A stretch of 64,000 bases of DNA from Clostridia bacterium (GTDB lineage: Bacteria; Bacillota; Clostridia; Oscillospirales; CAG-272): contig JAFQPI010000001.1 in assembly GCA_017411805.1 (NCBI GenBank), positions 1-64,000 on the forward strand, read 5' to 3'. The notes under the pieces are model-generated. The model was not told the origin of the DNA. It was given only the letters and a program-made list of their open reading frames with translations, and did not search any database. Positions 23,433-60,131 of this stretch are shown here, one piece after another (the first letter of the stretch is position 1; each line of letters opens with the position of its first letter). A program made the position numbers and the translations under genes.

Positions 23433-23533
23433 CGTACAGATCGCTCGCTTGAACCTACTTTGTGTTGCTGGCAACACAAACAATTTGCGCTTTGCCCAAT
23501 CAGAGATGAATACAGCATAAAACGCGCAAATAT

Positions 23534-44521: not shown

Positions 44522-44531
44522 TTTTCGCTCC

Positions 44532-45083
44532 TTATACCTTATGTATTGAAATGGATCGGCTGTCGAGATCCTTTCTTTCGAAAACAGAGTTTTCGAAGAT
44601 CATGTATGAATGCTCGCTGTCGGCTTTGGGGATTGAGATCGATCCGGGGTTGACTACCCAAACACTGCCGACGTTTTCAAAGCAGGGAATATGCGTATGT
44701 CCGTGAAGAAGAATGTCGCCCGCCTTCAGCTTTGGCATATTATTCGAATTGTAATGGTGGCCGTGCGTGGCAAAAATTATGTTCGATCCGATGCCGGAAT
44801 CCGAAATAATTGCGTATTCTGCAAGAATCGGGAAATCAAGAACCATGTCGTCAACCTCGCCGTCGCAGTTGCCTCTGACGCATATGATCTCGGATGCGAG
44901 TGCGTTTAACATGGAAATTACCGATTTTGGATCGTATTCGCGCGGCAGATCGTTCCTCGGGCCGTGGTAGAGAATATCGCCGAGCAGCAATAATCTCTCT
45001 GCGCCTTCTCTTTTATATGCTTCTATAAGCTTTTTGCAATAATATGAAGATCCGTGAATATCGGATGCAATGAGCCATTTCAT
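44532..45083 (-). CDS. yfcE: YfcE/MJ0936-family metallophosphoesterase
   Basis: A 183-residue calcineurin-like phosphodiesterase. All metal motifs are present: SDIHG (8-12), LLGDILYHGPRN, VRGNCDGE, FATHGHHYN and LLHGHTHIP. YfcE relatives hydrolyse phosphodiesters in vitro; the natural substrate is unclear. It is first in the yfcE-radA-trmO operon, with a good promoter upstream. Confidence 0.92.
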   Translation of the reverse strand: MKWLIASDIHGSSYYCKKLIEAYKREGAERLLLLGDILYHGPRNDLPREYDPKSVISMLNALASEIICVRGNCDGEVDDMVLDFPILAEYAIISDSGIGSNIIFATHGHHYNSNNMPKLKAGDILLHGHTHIPCFENVGSVWVVNPGSISIPKADSEHSYMIFENSVFERKDLDSRSISIHKV

Positions 45084-45117
45084 CGAAATTTTCCTTTTGT
45101 TGTTATTCTTTCTTTTT

Positions 45118-45146
45118 ATTATACAATATTTTTATCTGTTTTTCAA
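45118..45146 (-). promoter_or_regulatory. Promoter of the yfcE-radA-trmO operon
   Basis: Minus strand TTGAAA (45146-45141), 17 bases, TATAAT (45123-45118). Confidence 0.78.
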
Positions 45147-45164
45147 GCAATAATTAAAAAAGGT

Positions 45165-45902
45165 TTATGATTCTTCAAGAAAAGATGAAAGAGAGTAGAA
45201 TATAACGAAAGAGAGTAAATGTCTGTAATCATCCCTGCAAAGCTTTTCGCATTCCTCGGGATTTGATAAAAATCCGCATTCAATCAGAATCGCCGGACAC
45301 TTTATCCTGTCAAGCAGATAAATGTTGGTGCCCGCCTCCTTTAGCTCTCTGTTATTTTGAGGTTGCAAAAGCTCTATCACATTATGCCTGAGTAAAGAAC
45401 CCGCGTCTTGGCTTAACCGGTGATTGGGAGAATAGTAGACGGTAAGTCCCGAGTATTTTTGTTGCGGAAAGGCATTCATATGTATACCTACGAAAATATC
45501 GGGATCAACTTCGTTCGCGATTTTTAGTCTGGCAGCGAGGTCAAGCACCTTTTTCCTGCCCTTGAAATCGACGTTGCGATCATAGAGTAAAACGTCTTCA
45601 ACTCTTGTGGGAATGACTTCGTATCCGCAAAAGCGAAGGATAACGCAAAGCGTATCTGAAATTATCAGATTCAGTTCCTTTTCTGTTATTCCGTTTATGC
45701 CGACGGTCCCGCTGTCCTCCCCGCCGTGACCGGGATCGAGTACAATGACCTTTTTATCGGTTTCATTGGCAGATACGGGGCTCGTTTTGCCTAAACCGAT
45801 AAAAATGTTTGACATCAGTACGCAATATACGATAAATATTAGTGCAAACGCCGCTGTAAATATAGTGTTCGCGAGTATTTGCCTTTTAAGTGAATAATTC
45901 AT
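45165..45902 (-). CDS. cwlD: N-acetylmuramoyl-L-alanine amidase, CwlD type
   Basis: A 245-residue amidase_3 protein. One N-terminal helix (about 12-34) anchors or exports it. VIVLDPGHGGEDSG, KELNLIISD, GIHMNAFPQQ and ILIECGFLSNPEE give the zinc ligands and catalytic Glu. Length and layout match CwlD, which removes stem peptides for muramic-delta-lactam formation in spore cortex. The start at 45902 is chosen for GGAGGTGG upstream. A possible sporulation promoter (GTCATATT, 45949-45942) lies before it, but the -10 match is poor. Confidence 0.85.
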   Translation of the reverse strand: MNYSLKRQILANTIFTAAFALIFIVYCVLMSNIFIGLGKTSPVSANETDKKVIVLDPGHGGEDSGTVGINGITEKELNLIISDTLCVILRFCGYEVIPTRVEDVLLYDRNVDFKGRKKVLDLAARLKIANEVDPDIFVGIHMNAFPQQKYSGLTVYYSPNHRLSQDAGSLLRHNVIELLQPQNNRELKEAGTNIYLLDRIKCPAILIECGFLSNPEECEKLCRDDYRHLLSFVIFYSLSSFLEES

Positions 45903-45952
45903 AATAACCACCTCCATACAGATTATTTCGGTGATCAAAATAATATGACAAT

Positions 45953-45989
45953 AAAAAACGTCAAGGCAACTTAAGCCTTGACGTTTTTT
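45953..45989 (-). terminator. Intrinsic terminator of acpP
   Basis: A 15-bp perfect stem (AAAAAACGTCAAGGC/GCCTTGACGTTTTTT) with a seven-base loop, 16 bases beyond the acpP stop. Confidence 0.9.
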
Positions 45990-46004
45990 AAACAAAGCAG
46001 ATTA

Positions 46005-46229
46005 TTATTTGAGAGTATTGAGAAACTCAACTACGTCGCCGACGGTTACGAATTTGTTTGCCTGATCTTCAGGAATCTCAATATCGAACTTTTCCTCGCA
46101 CTGGAACAGAAGCTCAGCAAGCTCGATGGAATTGATTGCAAGATCGCCGGAAAGCTCAGCATCGAGAGTGATCTTTTCCTCTTCGACCTGAAATTCGTCG
46201 ATAAGCAGTTCTTTGAACTTTTCAAACAT
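46005..46229 (-). CDS. acpP: Acyl carrier protein
   Basis: A 74-residue acidic protein with the four-helix ACP pattern. The phosphopantetheine Ser is Ser34 in DLAINSIELAELL; the common DSL triad reads NSI here, a variant seen in Clostridial ACPs. GGAGG lies ten bases before the ATG at 46229; the longer frame to 46277 has no ribosome site. It is monocistronic, away from fab genes, with a consensus promoter and its own terminator. It carries acyl chains for fatty-acid or other synthesis. Confidence 0.92.
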   Translation of the reverse strand: MFEKFKELLIDEFQVEEEKITLDAELSGDLAINSIELAELLFQCEEKFDIEIPEDQANKFVTVGDVVEFLNTLK

Positions 46230-46288
46230 AATGAATTTGCCTCCAAATAAGTATATGGGGAATCCCCTTTGACACAATTGCCGAAGAT

Positions 46289-46317
46289 ATTATACAATAT
46301 TTCAAACTGTTTGTCAA
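46289..46317 (-). promoter_or_regulatory. Promoter of acpP
   Basis: Minus strand TTGACA (46317-46312), 17 bases, TATAAT (46294-46289): perfect consensus. Confidence 0.85.
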
Positions 46318-46370
46318 TACAAAATTTGTAAATTATACTCGCTTTCAGCAAAATACAACAATTGTTGAGC

Positions 46371-47714
46371 TTATTTGTGATATCTGTATCGCTTGTTTGA
46401 AGCAGTACCGCGTATAACAGCTTTAATGATTATATACAACAAAGTAAAAGCTACCGCAAAAATTACAGAAGCAATGAAAATTCTGCTTTGAGAGATCTCC
46501 TTGATCCGCATAAGAGCGTATAGGACCTCGCTTTGAGCAACCGCGGTCTTTGTAACGAGATCAACCGTAGCAATCTCTCGTCCGTCGCTGTATGCAGTTA
46601 TCAATCCAACGTGAGCACCTTCGGCAACGGGAGCCTGCAAGGATTCGGAATTGAGGGTGTAGCTGTAGGTGATATCGCTGCCGAGAACCGTGCTCTTGGG
46701 TAGATACGCGCTGACGCTTTCGCTCGGAACTACCAGAACGTTGTCAACGTCCATCGACATTGTAACCGGAATTTCGCAGACGGTTGTACCCGAAGAAATA
46801 ACTTCGATATATCCCCATGCGTCATAAGCCCAACGGACAAGGTCATTAATGAGAGAATATGACATAAGAGTTCCGTCCTCGTCCGTGCCGGCACCCATAA
46901 CGATGCAAATGTAGGAAAGATCTCCGTTATCGGCAACGGTTGCTGCGCAATAACCGCTTTCAAGCGTGCTTCCCGCGGCAAGTCCGTGGCATAGAGAATT
47001 GAAATACTTAGGAGTATAGCCCGTTCCGACGAGATAATTTCTGTTTTCGAATGTGAAGTTCTTATCTCCGAGCTTTTCCGTAGTGTAGTCGCTTGCGGTT
47101 GTTATCTGCATAAGCAGGGCGTTTTCGGAAGCGGCACGGCAAAGCTTTGATATGTCGTTTACGGTCGTATACATTGAATTATGATGCATTCCCGTGGCGT
47201 TGGCATAATAGGTGTCTGCCATGCCAAGCTCGGACGCCTTTGCGTTCATCAAAGCTATAAAATTCGGGAGATTACCCGATATTACATGCGCCAGAACGTT
47301 GATGGATTTGTGGCATCCGCCGCAGAAAGCAAGATACAGCAGATCCTTGATAGAAAGATTATGCCCGGGCATAATATTGTAATGCTGGCCTGTTACGCCC
47401 TCAAGCATTCCTGCAGTAACTACAACGACCTCGTCGAGCCTGCCTCCGAGCGTTTCTGCTGATATCAGTCCGGCCATGATCTTAACGGTTGAAACGGGTT
47501 GGATCTTTTTGTCTGTATTTTGGCTTATCAAAACACGGTCGTTTTCGCTATTGTATAGATAAACCGCGTCAGCGGCGGAAAGAGGGATCTCATCAAGTGA
47601 TTTTGCCGACGAGGGGAATACTATCAGAGAAAAAGAAAAAATTACTGAAATTAATATCGCCGCGGAGAGTAGCAAAGCCGCCCCGCGGCGGAAGAATAAA
47701 TATTTTTGATTCAT
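46371..47714 (-). CDS. Divergent D-alanyl-D-alanine carboxypeptidase-like membrane protein
   Basis: A 447-residue PBP5-family protein with signal/anchor helix (about 11-35) and a C-terminal membrane helix (about 408-432) followed by a basic tail. SxxK is intact (STVK, 75-78) and SxN is intact (SIN, 137-139). The KTG box is AAG (246-248, in HGLAAGSTLESGYC), so the conserved Lys that contacts substrate is missing. It may be weakly active or a structural or sensor relative. It is 18 bases downstream of ribF and last in the ireB-ribF operon. The ribosome site is weak. Confidence 0.8.
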   Translation of the reverse strand: MNQKYLFFRRGAALLLSAAILISVIFSFSLIVFPSSAKSLDEIPLSAADAVYLYNSENDRVLISQNTDKKIQPVSTVKIMAGLISAETLGGRLDEVVVVTAGMLEGVTGQHYNIMPGHNLSIKDLLYLAFCGGCHKSINVLAHVISGNLPNFIALMNAKASELGMADTYYANATGMHHNSMYTTVNDISKLCRAASENALLMQITTASDYTTEKLGDKNFTFENRNYLVGTGYTPKYFNSLCHGLAAGSTLESGYCAATVADNGDLSYICIVMGAGTDEDGTLMSYSLINDLVRWAYDAWGYIEVISSGTTVCEIPVTMSMDVDNVLVVPSESVSAYLPKSTVLGSDITYSYTLNSESLQAPVAEGAHVGLITAYSDGREIATVDLVTKTAVAQSEVLYALMRIKEISQSRIFIASVIFAVAFTLLYIIIKAVIRGTASNKRYRYHK

Positions 47715-47732
47715 ATTACAACAAAAAGAATT

Positions 47733-48662
47733 CTATATATTTTTAGTATCAAAAAATCTTCGAGCGGCATTCGCGTCGGAGGTTATCTGGGCCTTAAGAT
47801 CATCAAGGGAACCGAAAACTATCTCTCCGCGCAAATACTTAAGGAACTCTACCTTAATCTTTTTTGGAGTGTCATCGAGATATTCGTCAAGAATATGAGT
47901 CTCAATGCGAACCCTTCCGCTTGAGTCAAGCGTTGGGGCAAGTCCGATGTCGGTTACGGAATTGAATACTCTTCCGTCATCAAGAGTCGTGCGGGTAACG
48001 TAAACGCCGAATGCGGGAACGGCCCTGAGCGGATCGGGAAATTGATTGAGAGTGGGGAAGCCGAGCTTGCGTCCGTCGTGTCTTCCTTCAGAGACAGGAG
48101 CTGCGATAGCATATTTTCTGCCAAGCATCGCGCTTGCTTGTTCGATTTCACCGTCGGCGATCGCCGCGCGTATCCTGCTGGAGCTTACGGGATAGTCTCC
48201 GTAATAGATCGGATCGAGCGTGATAACGCGATCTCTGAAATAGTCGCGAAGTAAAGCCGGAGTACCTGCGCGATTTTTTCCGAAGGCAAAATTAAAGCCG
48301 CAAACGACCCCGATCGCACCGCATTTCTTCATAAGAATTTCGGTGATGAAATCTCTTGCATCAAGACCGCGAAGCTCAGAAAAGCCGGCAACAAAAAGCG
48401 ATGAAATGCCTCTGGCTTCAAACAGGTCTTTGCGTTCTTCCGGGTCTCCGAGAACCTTGATATTGCTTCCGGGCGCAAAGCAGGCTGGCGGAATATCAAA
48501 GCAAAACACTGCGGGCTCGGCGTTCAGCTCGGAGGCGAGTGAAACAGCCGCGTCGATTACCGCTCTGTGTCCGATATGAAATCCGTCAAAGCTGCCAAGA
48601 GCAAGCACTCTGCCGGACGTGCCGGCGGTAACGTGCTCTTTTGATAGAAAAAAATGATTCAT
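47733..48662 (-). CDS. ribF: Bifunctional riboflavin kinase/FMN adenylyltransferase
   Basis: A 309-residue RibF. The N-terminal adenylyltransferase has GSFDGFHIGHRAVI, VCGFNFAFGKNRAGTP and VSSSRIR; the C-terminal riboflavin kinase domain has GRKLGFPTLN and VEFLKYLRGE. It makes FMN and FAD from riboflavin, which several flavoproteins in this window need. It lies five bases after ireB. Confidence 0.95.
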   Translation of the reverse strand: MNHFFLSKEHVTAGTSGRVLALGSFDGFHIGHRAVIDAAVSLASELNAEPAVFCFDIPPACFAPGSNIKVLGDPEERKDLFEARGISSLFVAGFSELRGLDARDFITEILMKKCGAIGVVCGFNFAFGKNRAGTPALLRDYFRDRVITLDPIYYGDYPVSSSRIRAAIADGEIEQASAMLGRKYAIAAPVSEGRHDGRKLGFPTLNQFPDPLRAVPAFGVYVTRTTLDDGRVFNSVTDIGLAPTLDSSGRVRIETHILDEYLDDTPKKIKVEFLKYLRGEIVFGSLDDLKAQITSDANAARRFFDTKNI

Positions 48663-48667
48663 AAAGC

Positions 48668-48952
48668 TTATTTCTTTACAATGTCTGAAAAATAGAATTT
48701 TGCGAGTGCGTCAAGAAGCTCATCTCTGTCGAGCCTCGAGATCAAGCCTCTGGCGTTTCTGTAGCTTGTGATGTAAGTAGGATCCTCGGAAAGAATATAA
48801 CCGACTATCTGGCTTATCGGATTGTAGCCCTTTTCTTCGAGTGCTTCATAAACGGCGAACAGGATCTCGCGTATCGTAGCATCTCTGTCGGACATTGAAG
48901 GGAATTTTCGTGTGCTATAATTTGTATCATGATGGGCGTTCTTGCTCAGCAT
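48668..48952 (-). CDS. ireB: IreB-family regulatory phosphoprotein
   Basis: A 94-residue UPF0297 protein. KFPSMSDRDATIREILFAVYEALEEKGYNPISQIVGYILSEDPTYITSYRNARGLI is near the family consensus, and the N-terminal Thr residues in HDTNYST lie where IreK kinase phosphorylates enterococcal IreB. The start at 48952 has AAGGAGG upstream. The usual ruvX partner is absent; ribF follows instead. Confidence 0.93.
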   Translation of the reverse strand: MLSKNAHHDTNYSTRKFPSMSDRDATIREILFAVYEALEEKGYNPISQIVGYILSEDPTYITSYRNARGLISRLDRDELLDALAKFYFSDIVKK

Positions 48953-48989
48953 ATCGGTTACCTCCTTTTGGATACAAATACTCATTTAT

Positions 48990-49018
48990 ATTATACCCCA
49001 AAAAATACCGAATTTCAA
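48990..49018 (-). promoter_or_regulatory. Promoter of the ireB-ribF operon
   Basis: Minus strand TTGAAA (49018-49013), 17 bases, TATAAT (48995-48990). Confidence 0.78.
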
Positions 49019-49122
49019 TACCTTTTAGCAATGAAAATCAAAAATAATTCATTTTTATTTAATTTATTTTATTGATGAGAAGGAAAATTATTTGTTATAA
49101 ATAAAAATAAATTAAAAAATAT

Positions 49123-49151
49123 TGACAGGACTAAAAAAATAAGTTATAATG
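49123..49151 (+). promoter_or_regulatory. Promoter of the TerB-BrxD-BrxHI operon
   Basis: TTGACA (49123-49128), 17 bases, TATAAT (49146-49151), preceded by an extremely A/T-rich tract (about 49040-49122) that could act as an UP element. AAAGGAG precedes the start at 49185. Confidence 0.82.
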
Positions 49152-49184
49152 ATATGATACCTGATCGGAAAGGAGAATGCTTTA

Positions 49185-50828
49185 ATGGATAAAAATAATA
49201 AAAACGATATAATTGACGATTTTTGGAATATAGATGCCCTCGTGCCCAAAAAGCGTTCTCCTGCGGTGTTTGACGATAAGCATACTGAAGCTGCCGAGAT
49301 AGAGGTCCCGATCCCCGGAGGAACGGAATCGTCCTATTTCGCAAAAAGCGAAAAAATACCGGAAAGCAGTGTGATCAAACGCTATATCCACCCCCATTCA
49401 GCAGAAAGCGAAAAGCAAAAAGCACCTGATGAGGAATATCATCCTGAAAATTCGCTTATACATTCCGTACGCCTTTATTCATGGAGCAGTGTTTATCCTT
49501 ATTACGAGCAGTTCAGGAAGGCTGCCATCTATTATTACGGAAAAACTTCTCCAAAGGTTGATGCAGAACCATATTTCTCATATATGCCTCAGTATTCTCA
49601 GCTGAACAACCGTCAGCTTGCGTATTATCTTTGGTTCAGAAGCGAAATCAGAGCGGAGCGTTATCCCTCGGTCGAATACAGTTATATTTTATTGCTCATT
49701 TATGAGATCATAAATCTTTCGGATAAGCTGCCTCGGGAGCGTTCTATAGACGTCCTTGAGGCAATCTGGCTCAATTACAGAGACGAATATCCTCGCCTGG
49801 ACGTTCAGCTTTCGGAATGGATATTCGATATGTGCTTGTTGAACAAGACACATCCTCCGCGCGATATTCTCGGGGTTGTCGGCAATGCGCTCCCTGCGAC
49901 GGCGGGACTTCGGGAGTTTTATGCGGACGCAGTCGGAGATTCGGAAGCCTTTGCATCGTTGCTTTTGCGGCATTGCTCGAATTATAACTATAAAAAGAGT
50001 AAATTTGCCGTCGGAGAAAACCGGCAGCTTTATAAAAAGCACATGCGCGGGGTTCTGTCGTACATTATTTCAAAATGTAACGACCCGTCGCATCCGTTTG
50101 AGCTTGCCGGTCTGAAGCTTCAGGACAGCCGTACGCAGCGCGATTCATATACGGGCGCACTCTGCAGTCCAAAGGTGAAGAAGCGCATAGAGATCGAATT
50201 CTGCTCGTTCTCGCATTCGCACGAATTGAGATTCATTGTTACCGATATTCTCAAATACGCGGAGAATCGGATCCGCGCCCACATAGGCGTAAAATCGCGC
50301 CTGTCGGTAAATCCTCTTCCAAGCGAAATCAAAGCACTTGCCGACGAATATTTTGGCAGAGAATTGCCGATAAAAACGCTTCATCCGAGTATCGAAAACG
50401 AGATACCGGAATATGAAAAACTGTATGAACCGACGTCGCACGGACTCTCCTTCGAGTCCGCCGCAAAGATCGAACAGCTTTCATGGGAGACTACGGGCAG
50501 ACTTGTCGAGGCTTTCGAGGATACCGAAGACCCCATTGTAATCGAAGAATCGATCCCCGAACCCATACCCGAAGAATCCGGATCTCTCTTCGACAGCCTC
50601 AGCACGGATGAGAAGAGCTTCATAATTGCCGCGCTTGACGGAGATATCTCCGCACAAGCCGCTATTGCCGCACGATCGGGATCACTGCCCGATATAATCG
50701 CAGACCGCATAAATACCCTCGCCGCCGATCTCATGGGCGATATACTGCTCGAGGACGTCGGAGGCGGATATGCCGTGATCGAGGATTACGAGGAAGAAAC
50801 GAGAGGAGCACTTAGCCATGACGGATAA
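49185..50828 (+). CDS. TerB-N/TerB-C domain protein
   Basis: A 547-residue soluble protein. A low-complexity charged N-terminus of about 85 residues precedes a TerB-N-like domain (about 88-300; WSSVYPYYEQFRKAA, PYFSYMPQYSQLNNRQLAYYLWFR, YSYILLLIYEIINL). The C-terminal half, including the acidic linker IPEPIPEESG and FDSLSTDEKSFIIAALDG, fits a TerB-C-like region. TerB-N/C proteins have been linked by comparative genomics to tellurium-resistance-related stress and phage-defence systems, often with AAA ATPases and helicases, as here. No catalytic motif is visible. It overlaps the ATPase gene by 11 bases. Confidence 0.75.
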   Translation: MDKNNKNDIIDDFWNIDALVPKKRSPAVFDDKHTEAAEIEVPIPGGTESSYFAKSEKIPESSVIKRYIHPHSAESEKQKAPDEEYHPENSLIHSVRLYSWSSVYPYYEQFRKAAIYYYGKTSPKVDAEPYFSYMPQYSQLNNRQLAYYLWFRSEIRAERYPSVEYSYILLLIYEIINLSDKLPRERSIDVLEAIWLNYRDEYPRLDVQLSEWIFDMCLLNKTHPPRDILGVVGNALPATAGLREFYADAVGDSEAFASLLLRHCSNYNYKKSKFAVGENRQLYKKHMRGVLSYIISKCNDPSHPFELAGLKLQDSRTQRDSYTGALCSPKVKKRIEIEFCSFSHSHELRFIVTDILKYAENRIRAHIGVKSRLSVNPLPSEIKALADEYFGRELPIKTLHPSIENEIPEYEKLYEPTSHGLSFESAAKIEQLSWETTGRLVEAFEDTEDPIVIEESIPEPIPEESGSLFDSLSTDEKSFIIAALDGDISAQAAIAARSGSLPDIIADRINTLAADLMGDILLEDVGGGYAVIEDYEEETRGALSHDG

Positions 50829-52176
50829 CAAAAATCAAAAGATACCGAAGAGAATACTTGCCTCGCTGATCGCATCTGTTTCCGCGGGCGTAGTACCGCG
50901 CTCGGGCGCACCCTACATCGCAATAGGCAGACACGATGAGATCGAAGCCCTCCTTTTCGATCTTGAGCTTATGAATGAGGGCGGCGGAAGCATGCGCTTT
51001 CTCGTCGGACGCTACGGAAGCGGTAAAAGCTTCTTGATGCAGCTTATCAGAGGCTATGCGATTGAACGCGATTTCTTGACGGCGGATTGCGACCTTTCTC
51101 CCGAACGTAGACTTTACGGAAGCGGCGGCGCAGGTGTCGCTACTTACCGTGAGCTTATGAAAAATCTTGCTTCCAAGGCGGCTCCCGACGGAGGTGCAAT
51201 GCCCAAGATCATTGCAAAATGGGTGTTCTCTCTTCAAGGGGAACTGATCTCGGATGGCATAACTCCCGATTCTCCCGTGTTTTCCGCAAAGCTTGACGCC
51301 AAGCTTTTTGAGAGCCTTCGGGAGATCGAATTCCTCGTCGGAGGATTTGATTTTTCGCGCGTTATCGGAGAATATTACAGGGCAACCCAGCGCGGTGACG
51401 ATATCCGCGCCGCCGCGTGTCTGCGTTGGCTCCGCGGTGAGTTTGCAACCAAGACCGAAGCGCGCCGCGAGCTCGGATTTGACGTCTCCGCAATCATCGG
51501 AGATAATAACTGGTATGATTTTCTCAAGCTATGGGCGGCTCTTTCTCGCTCAATGGGCTATCGCGGATTGCTCGTCTTCATCGACGAATGCGTGAATCTG
51601 TATAAGATCCCGCACCGTGTATCGCGTGAAAATAACTACGAAAAGATCCTTTCGATGTTTAATGACACATTACAGGGAAGAGCACCTTATCTCGGTCTCG
51701 TCCTCGGAGGCACGCCACAGTTCCTCGAGGATTCCCGACGCGGACTTTTCAGTTATGAGGCACTCCGCAGCCGCCTCTGCGACAGCCGGTTTGCATCGGA
51801 ACAGCATAAAAACTTCGTCGGTCCCGTTATCAGACTGACAAGACTTTCTGACGACGAGCTTCTTGCGCTTGTTGTGCGTATGACATCGCTTCACGGACAG
51901 AATTTCTCCTGGGAGCCCAGAATCACACGTGAGGAACAGGTGAAATTCGTACAGATCTGCCTCGATCGCGCGGGCGCGAATTTGATGATCACACCGCGTG
52001 AAATGCTCCGCGACTATATGACCCTGCTCAATATCCTTATGCAGAACCCGAACGTAGATTTCAATGCCGTCGTTGGCTCTGCGGTTACTCTCAAAACTGA
52101 TGCTGACGAAGCGCCTGCTCCTAAGGAACAGGAATCCACCCGATCAAAATTCGATCCCGCAGACATTGATTTTTAA
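50818..52176 (+). CDS. brxD: BrxD-like ATP-binding protein (DUF2791)
   Basis: A 452-residue P-loop ATPase. IPKRILASLIASVSAGVVPRSGAPYIAIGR at the start, Walker A GRYGSGKS (64-71), Walker B LLVFIDE (251-257), then LVLGGTPQFLED and RLTRLSDDELLALVVRM match the BREX-associated BrxD/DUF2791 family. BrxD is part of type-2 BREX. Here the methyltransferase PglX, PglZ, PglW and PglY are absent. The start codon lies inside the TerB gene and GAGGAG precedes it by nine bases. The C-terminal tail is acidic and the helicase gene follows at 12 bases. Confidence 0.8.
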   Translation: MTDNKNQKIPKRILASLIASVSAGVVPRSGAPYIAIGRHDEIEALLFDLELMNEGGGSMRFLVGRYGSGKSFLMQLIRGYAIERDFLTADCDLSPERRLYGSGGAGVATYRELMKNLASKAAPDGGAMPKIIAKWVFSLQGELISDGITPDSPVFSAKLDAKLFESLREIEFLVGGFDFSRVIGEYYRATQRGDDIRAAACLRWLRGEFATKTEARRELGFDVSAIIGDNNWYDFLKLWAALSRSMGYRGLLVFIDECVNLYKIPHRVSRENNYEKILSMFNDTLQGRAPYLGLVLGGTPQFLEDSRRGLFSYEALRSRLCDSRFASEQHKNFVGPVIRLTRLSDDELLALVVRMTSLHGQNFSWEPRITREEQVKFVQICLDRAGANLMITPREMLRDYMTLLNILMQNPNVDFNAVVGSAVTLKTDADEAPAPKEQESTRSKFDPADIDF

Positions 52177-52187
52177 GGGGGGGCAGC

Positions 52188-54431
52188 ATGAACAGAAACG
52201 ACAGCGTTTTTGAACGCTTTCCCGATTATATCCGCGAGTATATCTATCAACATTCCTGGGATTCTTTACGTGAGATCCAACTTCTTGCCGCGGAATCGCT
52301 TTTTAACACACAGAATAATTTGCTTTTAACGTCGTCCACGGCATCGGGGAAGACCGAAGCTGCTTTCTTCCCGATACTGACGATGCTTGAGGGCAACCTT
52401 CCCGATAGTGTTGCCGTACTCTATATCGCACCGCTCAAAAGCCTTATAAACGATCAGTTCGGACGTATCGAGGAACTGCTCGATATCTCGGGAATACCCG
52501 TGACGCATTGGCACGGAGACGTCGCGCAATCGCATAAGAAAAAGCTTCTCGAAAAGCCGAGAGGGATACTGCAGATCACGCCGGAGTCACTCGAATCAAT
52601 GCTTATGAACCGCTCGAATGACCTCATCCGCCTCTTCTCGGGACTTGAATTCGTGATAATCGATGAGATCCATACACTCACGGGCTCGGACAGAGGAAAT
52701 CAGATCATCTGTCAGTTATCAAGACTCGGCAGACTCATCGGACACCACCCGCGAAGAGTCGGACTTTCCGCAACCGTCGGTGATACCGCGCTTGCAGCCG
52801 CTTGGCTCGGTGCAGGAAGCGGAAGGGATACCGATGTTCCCGAGCCGACGCCTGAAAAATTGCGTTGGCGCGTCGGAATGGAGCATTTTTATATTCAGAA
52901 CGACGACCATCTCCAGTCGGACAGTGCGAAGAAGAACAGAGAAGAGCCGGGCTCTCCAAAGCGCGCGCAGATAGACGCAGGATACGAATATATCTACGAT
53001 TGCGTACGCGATAAGAAATCTCTCGTTTTTTCAAATTCGCGCGAGGAGACCGAATACGTAACGGCAACCCTCCGTCAGATCGCCAAGAACCGCGGTGATA
53101 AGGATATCTTCCTTATCCACCACGGAAATCTTTCCGCATCCATACGCGAGGAAGCCGAGCAAAAGATGAAGGACGAGGATATCCACGCAGTCACTTGCGC
53201 AACTGTTACGATGGAGCTCGGAATCGACATTGGCAGACTCGAAAGAGTCGTTCAGAATTCTTCGCCAAACTCTGTTTCAAGTCTTCTTCAAAGACTTGGA
53301 CGTTCCGGCAGACGGGGACAGCCTCCCGAGATGATGCTTGTCTTCCGCGAGGAAAATCCGCTCCCGAATACGCCCCTGCCGCAGCTTTTTCCTTGGGAAT
53401 TGCTCCGCGCCATCGCAATTATTCAGCTTTATATTGAGGAACGCTTTATCGAGCCTCCGAGAATCAAGAATCTTCCCTTTAGCCTTGCGTTCCATCAGAC
53501 TCTCAGCGTCCTTGCATCAAGCGGCGAGCTGACACCTAGAGCTCTTGCCGAGCGCATACTGTCTTTGCCTCCGCTTTCGGGGATCTCGAAGGAGGATTAC
53601 AAGACCCTTATGATCTCAATGATCGAAAACGATTATATCGAGATGACGGAGGAAAAGGGACTGATCGTCGGACTCGCGGGCGAGAGACTTATCTCAAGCT
53701 TCAAATTCTACGCCGTCTTCAAGGACAGCGAGGACTATACCGTCCGCCACGAATCCGAGGAGATCGGCACGATAACAACACCTCCTCCCGTCGGGGACCG
53801 ATTTGCGCTCGCAGGCAGAGTATGGGAGGTTGAAGAGCTTGACGTTGCGCGTAAGCTGATCTACGTCAAGCCCGTCGAGGGTAAAATGGAGGTCTCGTGG
53901 CCCGGTGACTACGGCGAGATCCACACAAAGATACTGCAGAGAATGCGCCGCGTGCTCGAGGAGGATACGGTATATCCATATCTCAAGCCAAACGCAGCTC
54001 ACCGCCTTGAGGTTGCGCGCCATCTTGCAAGAAATACGGGAATGCTTGAGCATTCGATCGTCCACCTCGGCGGATATTCATGGTGCATTTTCCCGTGGCT
54101 CGGAACGCGCTCCTTCAGAACCTTCCGCAAATTCCTTGCCGCACATGCATACGAATATCGCATCAGCGGCATCGAACATGAGGCTGGTGCTTATATCACC
54201 TTCAAAATGGAGCAGGGAAACGACTATGCTCTCGCCCGCGGTCTTGCGTCCGAGGTCATGAAAAAAGGAATCGACCCTATGTCGCTTATCAAGCCGAGTG
54301 AAAATCCCGTCTTCGATAAATACGACGAATACATCCCGAATTCACTCCTGCAAAAGGCATATGCTGCTGATAAACTTGCACCGGACGAGGCTGAAAAGAG
54401 AGTTCTTGAGATTCTCAAAGAGTTGGAATAA
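52188..54431 (+). CDS. brxHI: BrxHI/Lhr-like superfamily II helicase
   Basis: A 747-residue DEAD/DEAH helicase. Motif I TASGKTEA (51-58), Ia YIAPLKSLIND, motif II DEIH (159-162), motif III LSATVGD, motif IV/V region LVFSNSREETE and TMELGIDIGR, motif VI QRLGRSGRRGQ. A C-terminal Lhr-like region follows (PPPVGDRFALAGRVWEVEELDVARKLIYVKPVEGK). Such helicases translocate on nucleic acid with ATP. BrxHI is the helicase of type-2 BREX, and this one follows the BrxD gene in the same order. AGGGGGG precedes the ATG. It ends the operon at a strong terminator. Confidence 0.85.
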   Translation: MNRNDSVFERFPDYIREYIYQHSWDSLREIQLLAAESLFNTQNNLLLTSSTASGKTEAAFFPILTMLEGNLPDSVAVLYIAPLKSLINDQFGRIEELLDISGIPVTHWHGDVAQSHKKKLLEKPRGILQITPESLESMLMNRSNDLIRLFSGLEFVIIDEIHTLTGSDRGNQIICQLSRLGRLIGHHPRRVGLSATVGDTALAAAWLGAGSGRDTDVPEPTPEKLRWRVGMEHFYIQNDDHLQSDSAKKNREEPGSPKRAQIDAGYEYIYDCVRDKKSLVFSNSREETEYVTATLRQIAKNRGDKDIFLIHHGNLSASIREEAEQKMKDEDIHAVTCATVTMELGIDIGRLERVVQNSSPNSVSSLLQRLGRSGRRGQPPEMMLVFREENPLPNTPLPQLFPWELLRAIAIIQLYIEERFIEPPRIKNLPFSLAFHQTLSVLASSGELTPRALAERILSLPPLSGISKEDYKTLMISMIENDYIEMTEEKGLIVGLAGERLISSFKFYAVFKDSEDYTVRHESEEIGTITTPPPVGDRFALAGRVWEVEELDVARKLIYVKPVEGKMEVSWPGDYGEIHTKILQRMRRVLEEDTVYPYLKPNAAHRLEVARHLARNTGMLEHSIVHLGGYSWCIFPWLGTRSFRTFRKFLAAHAYEYRISGIEHEAGAYITFKMEQGNDYALARGLASEVMKKGIDPMSLIKPSENPVFDKYDEYIPNSLLQKAYAADKLAPDEAEKRVLEILKELE

Positions 54432-54439
54432 AATAACCG

Positions 54440-54470
54440 AAAAGCACTCGCGATTTTGCGAGTGCTTTTT
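54440..54470 (+). terminator. Intrinsic terminator of the TerB-BrxD-BrxHI operon
   Basis: A 12-bp stem AAAAGCACTCGC/GCGAGTGCTTTT with a six-base loop and T-run. It touches the stop codon of the convergent small membrane gene. Confidence 0.9.
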
Positions 54471-54729
54471 ACGTGTCTTTGCGTTTTTGCGCGTCTTTAT
54501 CAACAAGATCAAGCAAGAGTGTCCCTGCCCAGAAAATGATGAAAGTCATTAATATGTAGTCAAGCATTGGCGCGTAATAAAACTCTACTCCCACTCCGCC
54601 CGCACTGACCTCACTCTCGCAAAGAAAATATATTCCCGCAAGCGCAAGTATGACAAGCGTGCTTCCTCCCTTATAAACCGCGATCGGTATCTTACCGATT
54701 CGGGATACGGCTGATAGAAATCTTTTCAT
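54469..54729 (-). CDS. Small two-helix membrane protein
   Basis: An 86-residue protein with a basic N-terminus and two hydrophobic segments (about 22-40, IAVYKGGSTLVILALAGIYFL; and 55-76, LDYILMTFIIFWAGTLLLDL), then a charged tail. GAGGAG seven bases before the ATG supports it as a real gene. No family is recognised. It is convergent with the helicase gene and may be unrelated to it. Confidence 0.6.
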   Translation of the reverse strand: MKRFLSAVSRIGKIPIAVYKGGSTLVILALAGIYFLCESEVSAGGVGVEFYYAPMLDYILMTFIIFWAGTLLLDLVDKDAQKRKDT

Positions 54730-55103
54730 AAATCGCTCCTCAAAGTTTTCATGAATATTTCACAAATATACAAAATACAATTGGTATAAACACCTTATTT
54801 AACATTATAACATAATATTTATACAGAATCAAGCGGTATTATTTTCTATATAATATTCATAGAGCATATTAATTTCTAAATCGAATCACGCTTTTGGCAA
54901 ATTTGATTGTGAGAATACGGCAAAAAGAGAAGCAATAATGATTTAATGTCATACCTAATGTCGTTCAATTCTCGGAAAAATGAAGAAAAAGCAGGATTTT
55001 TGTCGAATATGCATGAAAACTAAAGGACTTTTTTCTACAAAAATCGCGCAGTACGGTATGGTATGATTATATAAAAAATCGCCGAGAGGCATGGAGGTTC
55101 GAT
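54730..55103. other. A/T-rich gene-free stretch
   Basis: No gene is visible. It should hold the promoters of the divergent genes at 54729 and 55104, but no clear 17-bp-spaced pair was found. TGTCGAA at 55001-55007 matches the core of a Spo0A box, and TATGAT (55062-55067) could be a -10 for the gene at 55104. Confidence 0.4.
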
Positions 55104-55412
55104 ATGAATGACCGTTCAAATAAGACAGTACGCCGAGGAATACAGCTCAGAGGTGATATAATTAATATCATCGGAGATGAGATTTATTACAGATTATATC
55201 TGATCCGCCGCGCCGGCATTCGTTTTTATGCGATCAATATCACAAGTGCAAAGGAAAGCGTTAGCCGCACCTTCGGCAGAGATAAACGCAAAGCATATGA
55301 GATATATGAGAAAATAGTCAGAAACACTGTGACTCCTTGCTCGCTTGCTGATATCGCAGAGGATTTTGCGGCTGAATCGGTAAATAAGAGAAATATTGTT
55401 TTGTTTCGTTGA
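55104..55412 (+). CDS. DUF6514-like small protein
   Basis: A 102-residue cytoplasmic protein. YRLYLIRRAGIRFYAINITSAKESVSRTFGRDKRKAYEIYEKIVRNTVTPCSLADIAEDF has the strand-turn-helix order and the final VTPxSLxDIxEDF end of DUF6514-like Clostridial proteins. Function is unknown. GGAGG lies six bases before the ATG. It is monocistronic, 106 bases upstream of nrdR, which has a promoter of its own. Confidence 0.55.
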   Translation: MNDRSNKTVRRGIQLRGDIINIIGDEIYYRLYLIRRAGIRFYAINITSAKESVSRTFGRDKRKAYEIYEKIVRNTVTPCSLADIAEDFAAESVNKRNIVLFR

Positions 55413-55441
55413 ATGAAAATGGCGAATTTTTACTTTTTCTA

Positions 55442-55470
55442 TTTACAAATCGCGAAAAATATGGTATCAT
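55442..55470 (+). promoter_or_regulatory. Promoter of nrdR-pyk
   Basis: TTTACA (55442-55447), 17 bases, TATCAT (55465-55470). Confidence 0.6.
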
Positions 55471-55518
55471 ATATACTGTAGTATTATTGCATATCTTTGA
55501 AAGGATAGGTGATTGTAT

Positions 55519-55971
55519 ATGAAATGTCCACATTGCGGTTGTCTTGAAAGCAAGGTAATTGATTCCCGCCAGAATATTGAAAGTAACAATATCCGCCGCC
55601 GCCGTGAATGTATGGCGTGCCAGAAGAGATTTACGACCTTCGAGGTCGTCGAATCGGTTCAGACTATAGTTATAAAGAAGAACGGCTCAAAGCAGTTGTT
55701 TGACCGCCAGAAGCTTCTCACGGGACTTATGAAGGCGTGCGAAAAACGCCCCGTGAACGCGGAAACGATCGCGTCAGAGATTGAGGCTGAGCTTCATAAT
55801 TCGCTTCGCCAAGAGGTAACCTCGGGCGATCTCGGAGAGATGGTAATGCGCAAGCTTAAGGATATTGATGACGTAGCTTACGTTCGTTTTGCAAGCGTTT
55901 ACAGAGAGTTCAAGGATATTGAGACCTTTATCAAGGAGCTCAATGAAATCAAAAAGACCAGCGCAGAATGA
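55519..55971 (+). CDS. nrdR: Transcriptional repressor NrdR
   Basis: A 150-residue NrdR. A zinc ribbon ([18 protein letters not shown]...[12 protein letters not shown], four Cys) precedes an ATP-cone ([30 protein letters not shown]). It represses ribonucleotide reductase genes according to ATP/dATP level. The start at 55519 gives the conserved MKCPHCG beginning. No nrd genes are nearby; pyk follows and nearly overlaps. Confidence 0.96.
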
Positions 55972-55982
55972 GGCGGTACAAA

Positions 55983-57401
55983 ATGAGAAAAACAAAAATA
56001 GTATGTTCGATAGGTCCCGCAAGCGAGAGCGAAGAGGTGCTTCGCGGGCTTTGCCTTGCAGGAATGAACGTCGCGAGGCTGAATTTCTCGCACGGTACTT
56101 ATGAAGAGCACACGAGAAGGATAAACGCTATCAAAAAGGTGCGTGCGGAGCTCAATCTTCCCATAGCAATTATGCTTGATACCAAGGGTCCGGAATTTCG
56201 TATCAAGACGTTTGAAAACGGAAAGATATTCCTCGGCGACGGCGATAAATTCACTTTCACTACAGAAGATATAATCGGCGATCAGAGAAGAGTGGCTGTA
56301 ACTTATCAGGGACTTCCGGAGGAGCTGGATGCAGGCGATAGAATCCTGCTCAACAACGGTCTGCTTATCTTTGAAATAGATTCCATCATCGGTAACGATA
56401 TCAACTGTACGGTAATCTGCGGCGGTGAGCTTTCCGACAGAAAGAGTATGAGCTTCCCCGGAAAGCATCTGAAGCAGAAATACCTTTCCGAGCAGGACAA
56501 GGCTGACTTGCTCTTCGGTGTACAACACGGCGTTGATTACGTTGCTTGCTCCTTCGTATCCTGCAAGCAGGATATGATAGATATTAGAAGCTATCTTGAA
56601 GAGATCGGCGGCGGATATCTTGACCTTATTGCAAAGATCGAGAATCAGTCGGGATACGATAATATCGAGGAGATCTGCGAGCATTGCGACGGTATCATGG
56701 TCGCGCGAGGTGATATGGGCGTCGAGGTAGCATTTGAGAAGCTTCCCGCGATCCAAAAGCATTTGATCACAAAGTGCCGACTCCTTGGTAAGCGCGTGAT
56801 AACCGCAACCGAAATGCTCGAATCGATGATACACAATCCCCGTCCTACAAGAGCGGAGATTTCAGACGTTGCAAATGCTGTATACGACGGCACAAGTGCG
56901 ATTATGCTCTCGGGCGAGACAGCCGTCGGCGCGTATCCTGTACTCACGGTCCAGACCATGGCTAAGATCGCGGAAACGGCAGAAAGCGATATCGACTATG
57001 CAACGAAGTTTTATTCTTCCGAGTTCAAGATCAAAAATTCCGTTGATGCTATCTCGCATGCAACCTGCGCAATGGCTATAGATATAGACGCAAAGGCGAT
57101 CGTCGCCTGCTCGCTTTCCGGTATGACTGCAAGACTTGTCTCGAGATTCCGTGCTCCCGTGCCGATAATAGGACTTACCACTAATGAGATCACGTGGCGA
57201 AAGCTCGCACTTTCATGGGGAGTTACACCGGTTATATGCGATAAATATTCTTCGATCGACGTTCTGTTCTATATTGCAAAGAATACCGCTGCGGAGGTCT
57301 TTTCGCTGAAAAAGGGCGATAAGATAGTAGTAACCGGCGGCGATATTACAGGAAAATCAGGAAATACCAATCTTATCAAGGTTGAAGAAATAACCAAATA
57401 A
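55983..57401 (+). CDS. pyk: Pyruvate kinase
   Basis: A 472-residue pyruvate kinase without the extra C-terminal PEP-utiliser domain of some Firmicutes. KIVCSIGPAS, LNFSHGTYEEH, DTKGPEFR, the B domain about 70-165, IAKIENQSGYDNIEEI and MVARGDMGVE are typical. In the signature helix ITATQMLESM the Gln is Glu here (ITATEMLESM). It makes pyruvate and ATP from PEP and ADP. The start at 55983 has GAGGCGG upstream; an in-frame ATG at 55968 overlaps the nrdR stop. Confidence 0.96.
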   Translation: MRKTKIVCSIGPASESEEVLRGLCLAGMNVARLNFSHGTYEEHTRRINAIKKVRAELNLPIAIMLDTKGPEFRIKTFENGKIFLGDGDKFTFTTEDIIGDQRRVAVTYQGLPEELDAGDRILLNNGLLIFEIDSIIGNDINCTVICGGELSDRKSMSFPGKHLKQKYLSEQDKADLLFGVQHGVDYVACSFVSCKQDMIDIRSYLEEIGGGYLDLIAKIENQSGYDNIEEICEHCDGIMVARGDMGVEVAFEKLPAIQKHLITKCRLLGKRVITATEMLESMIHNPRPTRAEISDVANAVYDGTSAIMLSGETAVGAYPVLTVQTMAKIAETAESDIDYATKFYSSEFKIKNSVDAISHATCAMAIDIDAKAIVACSLSGMTARLVSRFRAPVPIIGLTTNEITWRKLALSWGVTPVICDKYSSIDVLFYIAKNTAAEVFSLKKGDKIVVTGGDITGKSGNTNLIKVEEITK

Positions 57402-57435
57402 AAATAATCCCGACCGAATCGGTCGGGATTATTTT
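57401..57435. terminator. Bidirectional intrinsic terminator
   Basis: A 16-bp stem (AAAATAATCCCGACCG and complement) with loop AAT, followed by T-rich sequence on both strands. It ends pyk and the convergent pckG gene. Confidence 0.93.
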
Positions 57436-57446
57436 TATGAAAATGA

Positions 57447-59237
57447 TTAAGCGTTGAGTCTTGCCTCGAGAGCAGCAAGCTCTTCGTACATCTCTGCGGG
57501 AACGCGGTCGCCGACGAGAGCGTAAAATTCCTTGATGTTCTGAACGTCCTCGAGCCAGGAAGCCTTATCAACGGTGAGAAGCTCCTTGATGGTATCAAGA
57601 GTGATATCCTCAAGACCCTCGATGTTGATGTCCTCAGCCTTCGGAACGTAACCGATAGCGGTCTCAACAGCGTCAACCTTATCTTCGCAGCGAGCGAGGA
57701 TCCAGTCAAGAACGCGGAGGTTGTCGCCGAATCCGGGCCAAATGAAGTGGCCTTCGTCATCGGTACGGAACCAGTTAACGTGGAAGATCTTGGGAGCGTT
57801 GGGGATAACCTTGCCCATCTCAACCCAGTGCTTCCAGTAGTCGCCCATGTTGTAGCCAACGAAGGGACGCATAGCCATCGGGTCGCGGCGAACTACGCCG
57901 ACTGCGCCTGCAGCTGCTGCAGTGGTCTCAGAAGCCATGATGGAACCAACGAAGGAACCGTGCTTCCAGTCGAAGGACTGGTAAACCAGGGGAGCTGTCT
58001 TTGCGCGGCGACCGCCGAATACGATCGCGGATACGGGAACACCCTTAAGGGAGTTGAACTCGGAAGAAATGCAGGGGCAGTTCTTTGCGAGAGCGGTGAA
58101 ACGGCTGTTGGGATGAGCGCCGCAGGTGGACTTATCCTTCTTATCGAACTTGGTGCAGTCCCAAGGTCTGCCCTGCCAGTCGATAGCGTTGCCGGGTGTG
58201 GGAGGATTGTTATCAAGACCTTCCCACCAAACGGTATTGTTCTCGGTGTTGTGAACGACGTTGGTGAAGATGGTGTCACGCATACAGGTGTGAAGAGCGT
58301 TGGGGTTGGACTTCTCGTTGGTACCGGGAGCAACGCCGAAGAAGCCGTTCTCGGGGTTAACTGCATAAAGCTTGCCGTCTTCCTTGTTAACGCGGAGCCA
58401 AGCAATATCGTCGCCTACGCACCAAACCTTGTAGCCCTTCTCGCGGTAGATTGCGGGAGGAATGAGCATTGCGAGGTTGGTCTTACCGCAAGCAGAGGGG
58501 AATGCAGCGGTGATGTATTTGATGTCGCCGTTAGGATACTCAACGCCGAGGATGAGCATATGCTCAGCCATCCAGCCTTCCTTGCGTCCGAGGTAGGAAG
58601 CAATACGGAGAGCGAAGCACTTCTTACCGAGAAGTACGTTTCCTCCGTAACCGGAGTTAACAGACATGATCTCGTTGGTCTCGGGGAAGTGAGTGATGTA
58701 ACGGTTCTCCTCGTCGATATCAGCGCGAGCATGAAGACCCTTGATATAGTCGGGGCTGTCGCCGAGAGCCTCGAGGACGTTTACGCCTACGCGTGTCATA
58801 ATGAGCATGTTGAGAACGACGTAGATAGAGTCGGTAAGCTCGATTCCGTACTTAGCAAAGTCGGAGCCTACAACGCCCATGGAGTAGGGAATAACGTACA
58901 TGGTACGTCCCTTCATGGAGCCGCGGTAGAGCTTGAAGAGCTTTTCCTTCATCTCTGCGGGAGCCATCCAGTTGTTGATGTTACCTGCATCCTCTTTCTT
59001 TTCTGTGCAGATATAGGTTCTGCCCTCTACACGTGCAACGTCGTTTACAGCGGTGCGGTGCAGGTAGCAGTTGGGAAGGAGCTCCTGATTCAGCTTGATC
59101 ATCTCGCCTGTGGAGCAAGCCTCTGCTCTGAGAGCCTCAGCCTGTTCCTCGGTGCCGTCGATCCATACGATCTTATCGGGCTTGGTCATGGCTGCCATCT
59201 CTTCGATCCAGTTAAGGACATACTTGTTGTTGGTCAT
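57447..59237 (-). CDS. pckG: Phosphoenolpyruvate carboxykinase (GTP)
   Basis: A 596-residue GTP-type PEPCK. SVNSGYGGNVLLGKKCFALR, the kinase P-loop FPSACGKTN (246-254) with active-site Cys250, WCVGDDIAWLR and the guanine-contact region (FDWKHGSFVGSIMASETTAAA) are clear. It interconverts oxaloacetate and PEP; in fermenters it often fixes CO2 toward succinate. The length and P-loop Cys separate it from the ATP-type enzyme more common in Bacilli. AAGGAG sits 11 bases before the ATG. It is monocistronic. A long open frame on the other strand is a codon-bias shadow. Confidence 0.96.
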   Translation of the reverse strand: MTNNKYVLNWIEEMAAMTKPDKIVWIDGTEEQAEALRAEACSTGEMIKLNQELLPNCYLHRTAVNDVARVEGRTYICTEKKEDAGNINNWMAPAEMKEKLFKLYRGSMKGRTMYVIPYSMGVVGSDFAKYGIELTDSIYVVLNMLIMTRVGVNVLEALGDSPDYIKGLHARADIDEENRYITHFPETNEIMSVNSGYGGNVLLGKKCFALRIASYLGRKEGWMAEHMLILGVEYPNGDIKYITAAFPSACGKTNLAMLIPPAIYREKGYKVWCVGDDIAWLRVNKEDGKLYAVNPENGFFGVAPGTNEKSNPNALHTCMRDTIFTNVVHNTENNTVWWEGLDNNPPTPGNAIDWQGRPWDCTKFDKKDKSTCGAHPNSRFTALAKNCPCISSEFNSLKGVPVSAIVFGGRRAKTAPLVYQSFDWKHGSFVGSIMASETTAAAAGAVGVVRRDPMAMRPFVGYNMGDYWKHWVEMGKVIPNAPKIFHVNWFRTDDEGHFIWPGFGDNLRVLDWILARCEDKVDAVETAIGYVPKAEDINIEGLEDITLDTIKELLTVDKASWLEDVQNIKEFYALVGDRVPAEMYEELAALEARLNA

Positions 59238-59299
59238 TCTTTTTTATTCTCCTTGAATAAGATTTACAAAAATTAATGGTAATATCATACCCACACATT

Positions 59300-59328
59300 A
59301 TTTTACAATATTATAACTCAAAATGCAA
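59300..59328 (-). promoter_or_regulatory. Promoter of pckG
   Basis: Minus strand TTGCAT (59328-59323), 17 bases, TAAAAT (59305-59300). Confidence 0.55.
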
Positions 59329-59412
59329 TAGACAGTTTCAAATGTTACATTTTTTTAACATGTTGCCCAAAGTGTGAACGGAAATTTTATACACTTTGTA
59401 CAGTGAAAATTG

Positions 59413-59426
59413 CGAACAAATGTTTG
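59413..59426. promoter_or_regulatory. LexA (SOS) box
   Basis: CGAACAAATGTTTG fits the Firmicute SOS box CGAAC-N4-GTTYG and overlaps the -35 box of the lexA promoter, so LexA should repress its own gene. Confidence 0.85.
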
Positions 59427-59452
59427 CATTTTTTGCAAAAATTTGATATAAT
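59424..59452 (+). promoter_or_regulatory. Promoter of lexA
   Basis: TTGCAT (59424-59429), 17 bases, TATAAT (59447-59452). Confidence 0.78.
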
Positions 59453-59520
59453 ATAATCAAGAAAAATTATCACCTCGGTAATAACCAAAAAATGGAATCA
59501 TTATATGGAGAAATACAAAG

Positions 59521-60117
59521 ATGAAAGAGCTAACAGCAAGAGAACGCTCGGTATATGAGTATATTAAAAACTCGCTCAGCGAGCACGGTTTTGCCCCGAG
59601 TGTCCGGGATATCCGAGATGCACTCGGCTTCAAGAGCACGTCAACGGTACATATGTATCTGACCCGACTGTCTGATATGGGACTGATCAACCGCGAGGGC
59701 GGTAAGAGCCGCGCTATCCATATGGACGGCGTTGCAGCTTCGAATCAAGTGCCTCTTATCGGACGAGTAACCGCAGGAAAACCCATACTCGCAGAGGAGG
59801 ATTTTGAGGGCTATATCAACTTCTGTGCATCGTCGGTCGGATGCAGGCCCGAAAATCTTTTCGCCCTCAACGTAAAGGGCGAGAGTATGATTGAAGCTGG
59901 CATACTCGACGGCGACGTCGTGATCGTCGATAAACGCACTTATGCCGAAAACGGAGAGATCGTCGTTGCGCTTATCGGAGACGAGGCAACAGTCAAAACC
60001 TTCTATAAGGAAGACGGACATTACCGTCTTCAACCCGAGAACAAGACCATGGAGCCCATCATCGAGGAGAGCGTTGATATTCTCGGTAAGGTCGTTGCCT
60101 CGCTGAGATTATACTGA
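59521..60117 (+). CDS. lexA: LexA repressor
   Basis: A 198-residue LexA. The winged helix is residues 1-65 (PSVRDIRDALGFKSTSTVHMYLTRL). The self-cleavage site is Ala85-Gly86 (RVTAGKP), with catalytic Ser122 (GESM) and Lys159 (EATVKTF). After DNA damage RecA stimulates cleavage and derepression. An SOS box lies in its promoter. Only 14 bases separate it from the ABC permease gene, so the exporter is probably in the same transcript. Confidence 0.97.
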   Translation: MKELTARERSVYEYIKNSLSEHGFAPSVRDIRDALGFKSTSTVHMYLTRLSDMGLINREGGKSRAIHMDGVAASNQVPLIGRVTAGKPILAEEDFEGYINFCASSVGCRPENLFALNVKGESMIEAGILDGDVVIVDKRTYAENGEIVVALIGDEATVKTFYKEDGHYRLQPENKTMEPIIEESVDILGKVVASLRLY

Positions 60118-60131
60118 TCAAGGAGACTTTG

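Follow-up and report, generated by a model that had tools for sequence, protein, structure and literature searches.

Positions 49185–54431 of a 64,000-nucleotide stretch of Clostridia bacterium DNA (GCA_017411805.1, contig JAFQPI010000001.1, positions 1–64,000; GTDB lineage Clostridia; Oscillospirales; CAG-272), hereafter denoted the window, carry three plus-strand genes, sngA, sngB and sngC, which form one transcription unit and all start with ATG (Table 1). On their profile matches we firmly assign these genes to Shango (SngABC), an already published system; what the present survey adds is the pattern by which Shango is inherited in this family of gut bacteria, together with the finding that sngC is encoded away from sngAB in many relatives. 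The sngA and sngB reading frames overlap by 11 nucleotides (nt), a gap of 11 nt separates sngB from sngC, and sngA has an AGGAG-type ribosome site ahead of its start codon. The numbers of promoter-like sites (9, against a shuffle mean of 7.3 with a standard deviation (sd) of 2.9) and terminator-like sites (11, against 7.2, sd 3.2) across the region are about those expected by chance; the weight given to the sngA promoter therefore derives from a perfect match at the expected place and not from the regional number of sites. An earlier note, made from the sequence alone, had described three overlapping or closely spaced genes under one strong promoter with a TerB protein first in order, and the gene spacing, the promoter and the SngA profile matches given below all bear this out.

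Table 1. Features of the Shango transcription unit (window coordinates; aa, amino acids; SF2, superfamily 2)
Feature	Positions	Strand	Description
sigma-70-type promoter	49122–49150	+	TTGACA-17-TATAAT, 12/12 consensus matches, upstream of sngA
sngA	49185–50828	+	547 aa, TerB_N / TerB_C protein
sngB	50818–52176	+	452 aa, BrxC/BrxD-superfamily P-loop ATPase, GRYGSGKS from residue 64
sngC	52188–54431	+	747 aa, SF2 DEAD/DEAH helicase of the BrxHI/Lhr-like kind
intrinsic-terminator-like hairpin	54439–54470	+	14 pairs and a T-run, after the sngC stop

In PADLOC, the first protein is matched by the SngA profile over residues 70–541 (2e-42, 145 bits), the second by SngB (4.9e-158, 525 bits, versus 5.1e-46 and 156 bits for BrxD) and the third by SngC (3.3e-241, 801 bits, versus 2e-123 and 411 bits for BrxHI). 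Pfam TerB_N lies over its cut-off in SngA (31.9 bits, cut-off 25; 1.5e-7) and TerB_C just under (22.7 bits, cut-off 26.3; 1.2e-4); BrxC_BrxD (PF10923) matches SngB at 502 bits, and both DEAD and Helicase_C match SngC, which also resembles YprA over the helicase core (3.9e-26). The Walker A motif of SngB, with K70, is intact, as are motifs I, II, III and VI of the SngC helicase (STASGKT, DEIH, SAT and QRLGRSGR). In SngA, residues Y148, Y167, E174, D215, R364 and E430 are invariant. The window thus holds the features of Shango, namely TerB-type domains in SngA, the SngB ATPase and the SngC helicase, in adjacent A-B-C order. The earlier note had proposed an undescribed compact system of defensive kind, made of an ATPase–helicase pair with a TerB protein and no visible nuclease; the make-up is that of published Shango, but the claim of novelty falls, PADLOC naming all three proteins.

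The same note had derived the ATPase and helicase from a type 2 bacteriophage exclusion (BREX) system with its pgl genes absent. Homology to BrxD and BrxHI stands, and a deep common ancestry of the BrxD–BrxHI and SngB–SngC pairs is likely, but the Shango models score far higher, and SngB misses the equivalog cut-off of NCBIfam BREX_BrxD (152.8 bits, 350 required). The absence of pgl genes holds for PglZ, which has no match in the source genome, a soft negative given an assembly of 73 contigs at 84.7% completeness in which PglX and PglW were not searched. At that completeness the genome has a single BrxC/BrxD-family (PF10923) match, sngB itself, and no second ATPase of the BrxC/PglY type; none of three flanking open reading frames scanned by Pfam is PglX or PglW, no family search for these having been made. 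The locus is not a BREX that recently lost its pgl genes: PglZ occurs in 6 of 146 family genomes (4 of them over cut-off) and SngB in 204 of 295.

Prevalence was assessed in 295 family genomes from 71 genera, of which 151 were good (completeness of 90% or more, contamination of 5% or less), and, for yardstick genes, in 146 family genomes (103 good). SngB is present in 12 of the 13 genomes of the source genus, in 110/151 good family genomes and in 55/71 genera, the match being single in 199 of 204 positives; about a quarter of the good genomes are without it altogether. SngC, counted at E-values up to 1e-80, is found in 201/295 genomes (113/151 good; 54/71 genera), with 191 of the 201 matches below 1e-200. 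The yardsticks HsdR, Cas1 and PglZ occur in 29, 20 and 6 of the 103 good genomes, respectively. Across the order sample SngB is found in 69/295 genomes, so that only certain families show it at high prevalence; family f17 has it in 12/22 genomes (7/11 good). Two individual genomes are unusual: G064 has SngC twice at full length, each copy on its own contig, and also matches SngB twice, reflecting either a duplication or a mixed bin, and the SngB match on contig C58 of G367 contains two in-frame TAG codons.

SngB and SngC occur together in 193 family genomes, with SngB alone in 11, SngC alone in 8 and neither in 83; the corresponding counts among good genomes are 109, 1, 4 and 37. Positions of the two genes were compared in 116 of the 193 genomes, those with positions listed among the best matches: the genes lie less than 8 kb apart in 81, on different contigs in 34 (some at contig ends, e.g. 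G068, G116 and G256) and, in G290, on one 384-kb contig but 105 kb from each other. For a closer reading of the sngB surroundings, between one and five genomes per genus, 80 in all, were picked from those for which SngB positions were listed, and 75 from 44 genera were kept (G084 and G162 had no rpoB, G003 and G043 gave fragments and G112 contained stops), mostly with about 7.5 kb on each side of sngB and less at contig ends. In 70 of the 75, sngA lies directly upstream of sngB, the five exceptions being two g18 and three g54 genomes. An sngC gene is within the stretch in 46, four stretches are too short, and 25 have none despite at least 3 kb downstream; SngC is encoded elsewhere in 24 of these 25 genomes (15 genera; position listed for 19), G051 having none. 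Leaving out six genomes with mobile-type copies (see below), the four with less than 3 kb downstream and G051, sngC is unlinked in 24 of 64 genomes (15 genera) and linked in 40. With the mobile-type copies set aside, the arrangement has changed at least four times on the rpoB tree, and the unlinked cases, among them groups g67, g41 and g54, mostly follow genera. Within the limits of metagenome bins, sngC is therefore separable from sngAB while being kept. Conservation of the trio, on which the earlier note had staked its case, holds for co-occurrence of the genes but not for their adjacency, sngC often being unlinked.

A similar picture is seen in families f6, f16 and f17, where all 26 SngB-positive genomes of the order sample also have SngC (weakest E-value 1.9e-147, in a search at 1e-60, a threshold at which 6/14 controls match); sngB and sngC are on different contigs in, for example, G326, G352, G392, G533 and G381.

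Two other accounts of the loci without sngC were considered and dropped. Helicase-free systems consisting of SngAB only were suggested by 25 of the 80 named loci, which have no sngC in the stretch (several are truncated), but 24 of 25 comparable genomes carry SngC elsewhere, a count taken in the genome sample and not locus by locus. Alternative third components downstream of sngB were set aside on the same genome count; ten downstream proteins scanned from seven sngC-less loci comprise alaS, eutH, bacA, ftsK, a glycosidase and two without family. A gene of the alaS cluster lies directly behind sngB in 9 of the 24 unlinked genomes, from 6 genera (G026, G052, G227, G109, G024, G021, G165, G064 and G123; Pfam-identified in one of the nine), a shared rearrangement. 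At loci L048, L054, L060, L078 and L102 roughly 1.2–2.4 kb separate sngB from sngC, and these may be intermediates between the linked and unlinked states. As to sngA, in G065 (g54, L176) it is on the strand opposite to sngB, some 2.7 kb away, and no copy is found in the stretches from the two remaining g54 genomes; in the g18 genomes G029 and G091 (L144 and L145) none is seen beside sngB.

Trees for the 75 genomes were obtained by a quick IQ-TREE search with support from the Shimodaira–Hasegawa-like approximate likelihood ratio test (SH-aLRT). Of the genera, 21 have two or more members; rpoB recovers every one of these as monophyletic, and SngB 20. Among the 69 copies of the resident lineage, SngB yields 24 splits supported at 95 or more, and 23 of these are compatible with every rpoB split at that level (mean 0.56, maximum 2, with shuffled labels); the correlation between SngB and rpoB distances is 0.66, against 0.21 for the best of 999 permutations. 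Many of the compatible splits lie within genera; of those spanning genera, 4/5 are compatible at support 95 (shuffled genus labels: mean 1.02, maximum 3) and 4/16 at support 80 (mean 0.19, maximum 2). When one half of rpoB is compared with the other as a benchmark, the figures are 3/3 at 95 and 6/21 at 80 with a distance correlation of 0.76; SngB correlates with the two halves at 0.68 and 0.59, somewhat below this benchmark. Because the rpoB halves conflict with each other to a like extent, the genus-spanning splits at support of at least 80 say little either way. For SngC, 50 resident copies, ten of them unlinked, give 24/25 splits compatible with rpoB at support 95 and 26/34 at 80. Inheritance of the resident Shango is thus mainly vertical, again within the limits of metagenome bins.

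When the SngB tree is extended by three plasmid copies and by 20 genomes drawn from nine further families, the six mobile-type copies (g7, g9, g11 and g36) are intermingled by family, falling among copies of f7, f10, f14, f20, f23 and f26 and near that of a Paenibacillus plasmid. The resident copies (f1) form one clade, to which those of f6 (2 genomes) and then f17 (6 genomes) are nearest, each family-pure; the f16 copies (4 genomes) make a clade of their own. Sister families of the order have probably also inherited a resident Shango vertically. The resident SngB clade shares 44–49% identity with the mobile-type copies found in ten genomes of the family, and the source SngB about 41% with an Aeromonas plasmid copy. 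Plasmid records with an SngB-like gene number 692, none of them reaching 60% identity to the source SngB, and a search of phage records for SngB gave no match. A patchy, horizontally spread pattern is seen for the sampled mobile-type copies and not for the resident lineage. Loss of the central TerB domain (PF05099) was considered as a mark of the resident lineage and discarded, as SngA of the Aeromonas and Paenibacillus plasmids likewise has no PF05099 match.

The window's operon is flanked on one side by a divergent ireB–ribF–dacA group and on the other by DUF6514–nrdR–pyk; IreB and DUF6514 are Pfam assignments, and the names ribF, dacA, nrdR and pyk come from our reading of the sequence. In different genera the resident sngAB stands beside alaS, bacA–ftsK or ribF–ireB. 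Neighbours were scanned across the 75 stretches for recurrent clusters, a scope that leaves room for single, non-recurring defence genes nearby. Apart from sngA and sngC themselves, no neighbour recurs more widely than an ABC transporter family, which turns up in 11 genera at varying positions; the alaS cluster occurs in 6 genera and ribF in 4, and the other clusters reach at most 6 genera, one of them consisting of antisense reading frames. Eight cluster representatives are, by Pfam, ABC, alaS, leucine-rich repeat, AMP-binding, SpoU methylase, sigma-70, HIT and one without family. Three have PADLOC matches (ABC to mad3, mad8 and weakly AriA; the sigma factor to MzaA at 5.7e-70; HIT to ThsC), which we read as shared domains.

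Compared with four genus relatives, SngA is 79, 68, 44 and 39% identical, ribF 77, 70, 42 and 41%, and dacA 75, 68, 39 and 45%; protein identities of sngABC as a whole are like those of the neighbours radA, ribF and dacA, with no visible acceleration. Since the SngA identities match those of ribF and dacA, we make no claim for SngA as an arms-race protein. Synonymous divergence (dS) was saturated or could not be computed, and its ratio to non-synonymous divergence (dN/dS) was not used. An Rfam scan of window positions 42000–62000 gave no match. Elsewhere in the window, at 23307–23608, a tRNA-Leu(caa) gene is followed by a long terminator-like hairpin, and 50 bases starting within the tRNA-Leu(caa) hairpin (23406–23455) recur exactly 153 bases further on (23559–23608).

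According to the published account, Shango of Pseudomonas aeruginosa PA14 consists of a TerB-like protein, an ATPase and a DEAD/DEAH helicase, and in P. aeruginosa PAO1 gives a modest 10–100-fold plaque reduction for many, though not all, phages (PMC10250203, which also cites an earlier report in E. coli). SngC has been placed, together with BrxHI, DruE and DpdJ, in what may be a separate clade of helicases (PMC12278908). A 2026 review gives the mechanism of Shango as unknown (PMC12926258); none was found in the open-access literature searched, nor was any statement on vertical inheritance or an unlinked helicase gene, on which other papers may report.

We favour, at a probability of roughly two in three, the reading that the operon is a Shango anti-phage system in a resident, vertically inherited lineage, whose SngA–SngB unit recruits, loads or licenses an SngC that can be encoded apart from it. 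In this model the TerB-domain protein SngA would form one unit with SngB, which is an ATPase of AAA+ type from the BrxC/BrxD superfamily. The unit would detect DNA that is foreign or replicates abnormally and would load or license SngC, and this helicase, by unwinding or translocation, would then disturb replication of the invader. As SngA and SngB evolve linked and SngC can be encoded elsewhere, the linkage pattern suggests that SngC is an enzyme recruited in trans by the A–B unit. The loading step is proposed by analogy with BREX, for which loading of the helicase by the BrxD-type ATPase has been put forward (PMC12839542). The A–B complex, its target and an anti-phage effect in this host are likewise predictions.

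Several observations weigh against this reading. The SngA of the window is a weak member of its family, with TerB_C below cut-off; the co-occurrence of SngB and SngC has exceptions even among good genomes (SngB only in G051; SngC only in G032, G137, G235 and G291), and the Fisher tests applied to it ignore shared ancestry; the 1e-80 threshold for SngC is not fully specific, 3/14 control genomes, all archaea, matching at it. The high prevalence, combined with ordinary recurrent neighbours, fits genome maintenance as well as defence.

More tentatively, what is called a 'defence system' in bacteria might be a non-mobile chromosomal component that entire families keep by persistent inheritance: the resident Shango might be an ancestral genome-surveillance complex in which a TerB–AAA+ unit controls SngC in trans, with the mobile, phage-tested operons as derived or parallel offshoots; we regard this as possible but not probable. 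Slightly more doubtful still is that SngABC here is a standing genome-maintenance machine, clearing stalled forks for instance, that is not primarily anti-phage and from which the mobile Shango defence derived. The presence of SngB, nearly always as one match, in most good genomes, inheritance largely with the species, the housing beside alaS, bacA–ftsK or ribF–ireB and amino-acid identities like those of radA, ribF and dacA, with no visible acceleration, would all suit such a machine, but the quarter of good genomes without sngB shows it to be dispensable, SngB-like genes occur on plasmids in number, and related copies are anti-phage (PMC10250203). It is very unlikely that the prevalence merely reflects recent spread by repeated horizontal transfer and that unlinked sngC genes are artefacts of binning or contig ends: the named relatives are indeed metagenome bins, the between-genus nodes are poorly resolved and some of the 34 different-contig cases fall at contig ends, but SngB agrees with rpoB nearly as well as the rpoB halves agree with each other, the 24 unlinked cases have at least 3 kb downstream of sngB and mostly follow genera, and the two genes of G290 are separated on one contig. 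We give next to no credence to a BREX type 2-derived module that lost its methylase and PglZ: SngB and SngC are indeed homologous to BrxD and BrxHI, but their own models match much better, the BREX_BrxD cut-off is missed, and PglZ is unmatched in the source genome and rare in the family (the relatives' neighbourhoods were not scanned for PglX or PglW).

A helicase gene that is repeatedly unlinked yet seldom alone would indicate two functional units, and points to the contacts to test first. The scoring of every Shango match as mobile defence is also called into question, since in this family it is closer to a persistent chromosomal trait, a view with consequences for surveys that estimate defence load from gut and rumen genomes.

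Among known systems, Lhr/YprA-type SF2 helicases resemble SngC in the sequence of the helicase core; to our knowledge they are not a defence family, and we know of no TerB or BrxD-type partner for them. Hachiman (HamAB) likewise employs an SF2 helicase, as a DNA sensor, but has a nuclease partner, and none is seen here. BREX type 2 shares a homologous BrxD–BrxHI dyad that travels together, with the loader role proposed for BrxD (PMC12839542), and differs in that here no PglZ was found, the BrxD cut-off is missed and a TerB protein stands in place of the BREX core. Published Shango is the closest, with the same order of TerB protein, ATPase and helicase, the best profile matches for all three proteins, and no nuclease or methylase seen; its P. 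aeruginosa copy lies in a defence hotspot (PMC10250203), whereas the resident lineage, in comparisons that did not include the PA14 protein itself, forms a separate SngB clade, is mainly vertically inherited and has sngC unlinked in many relatives.

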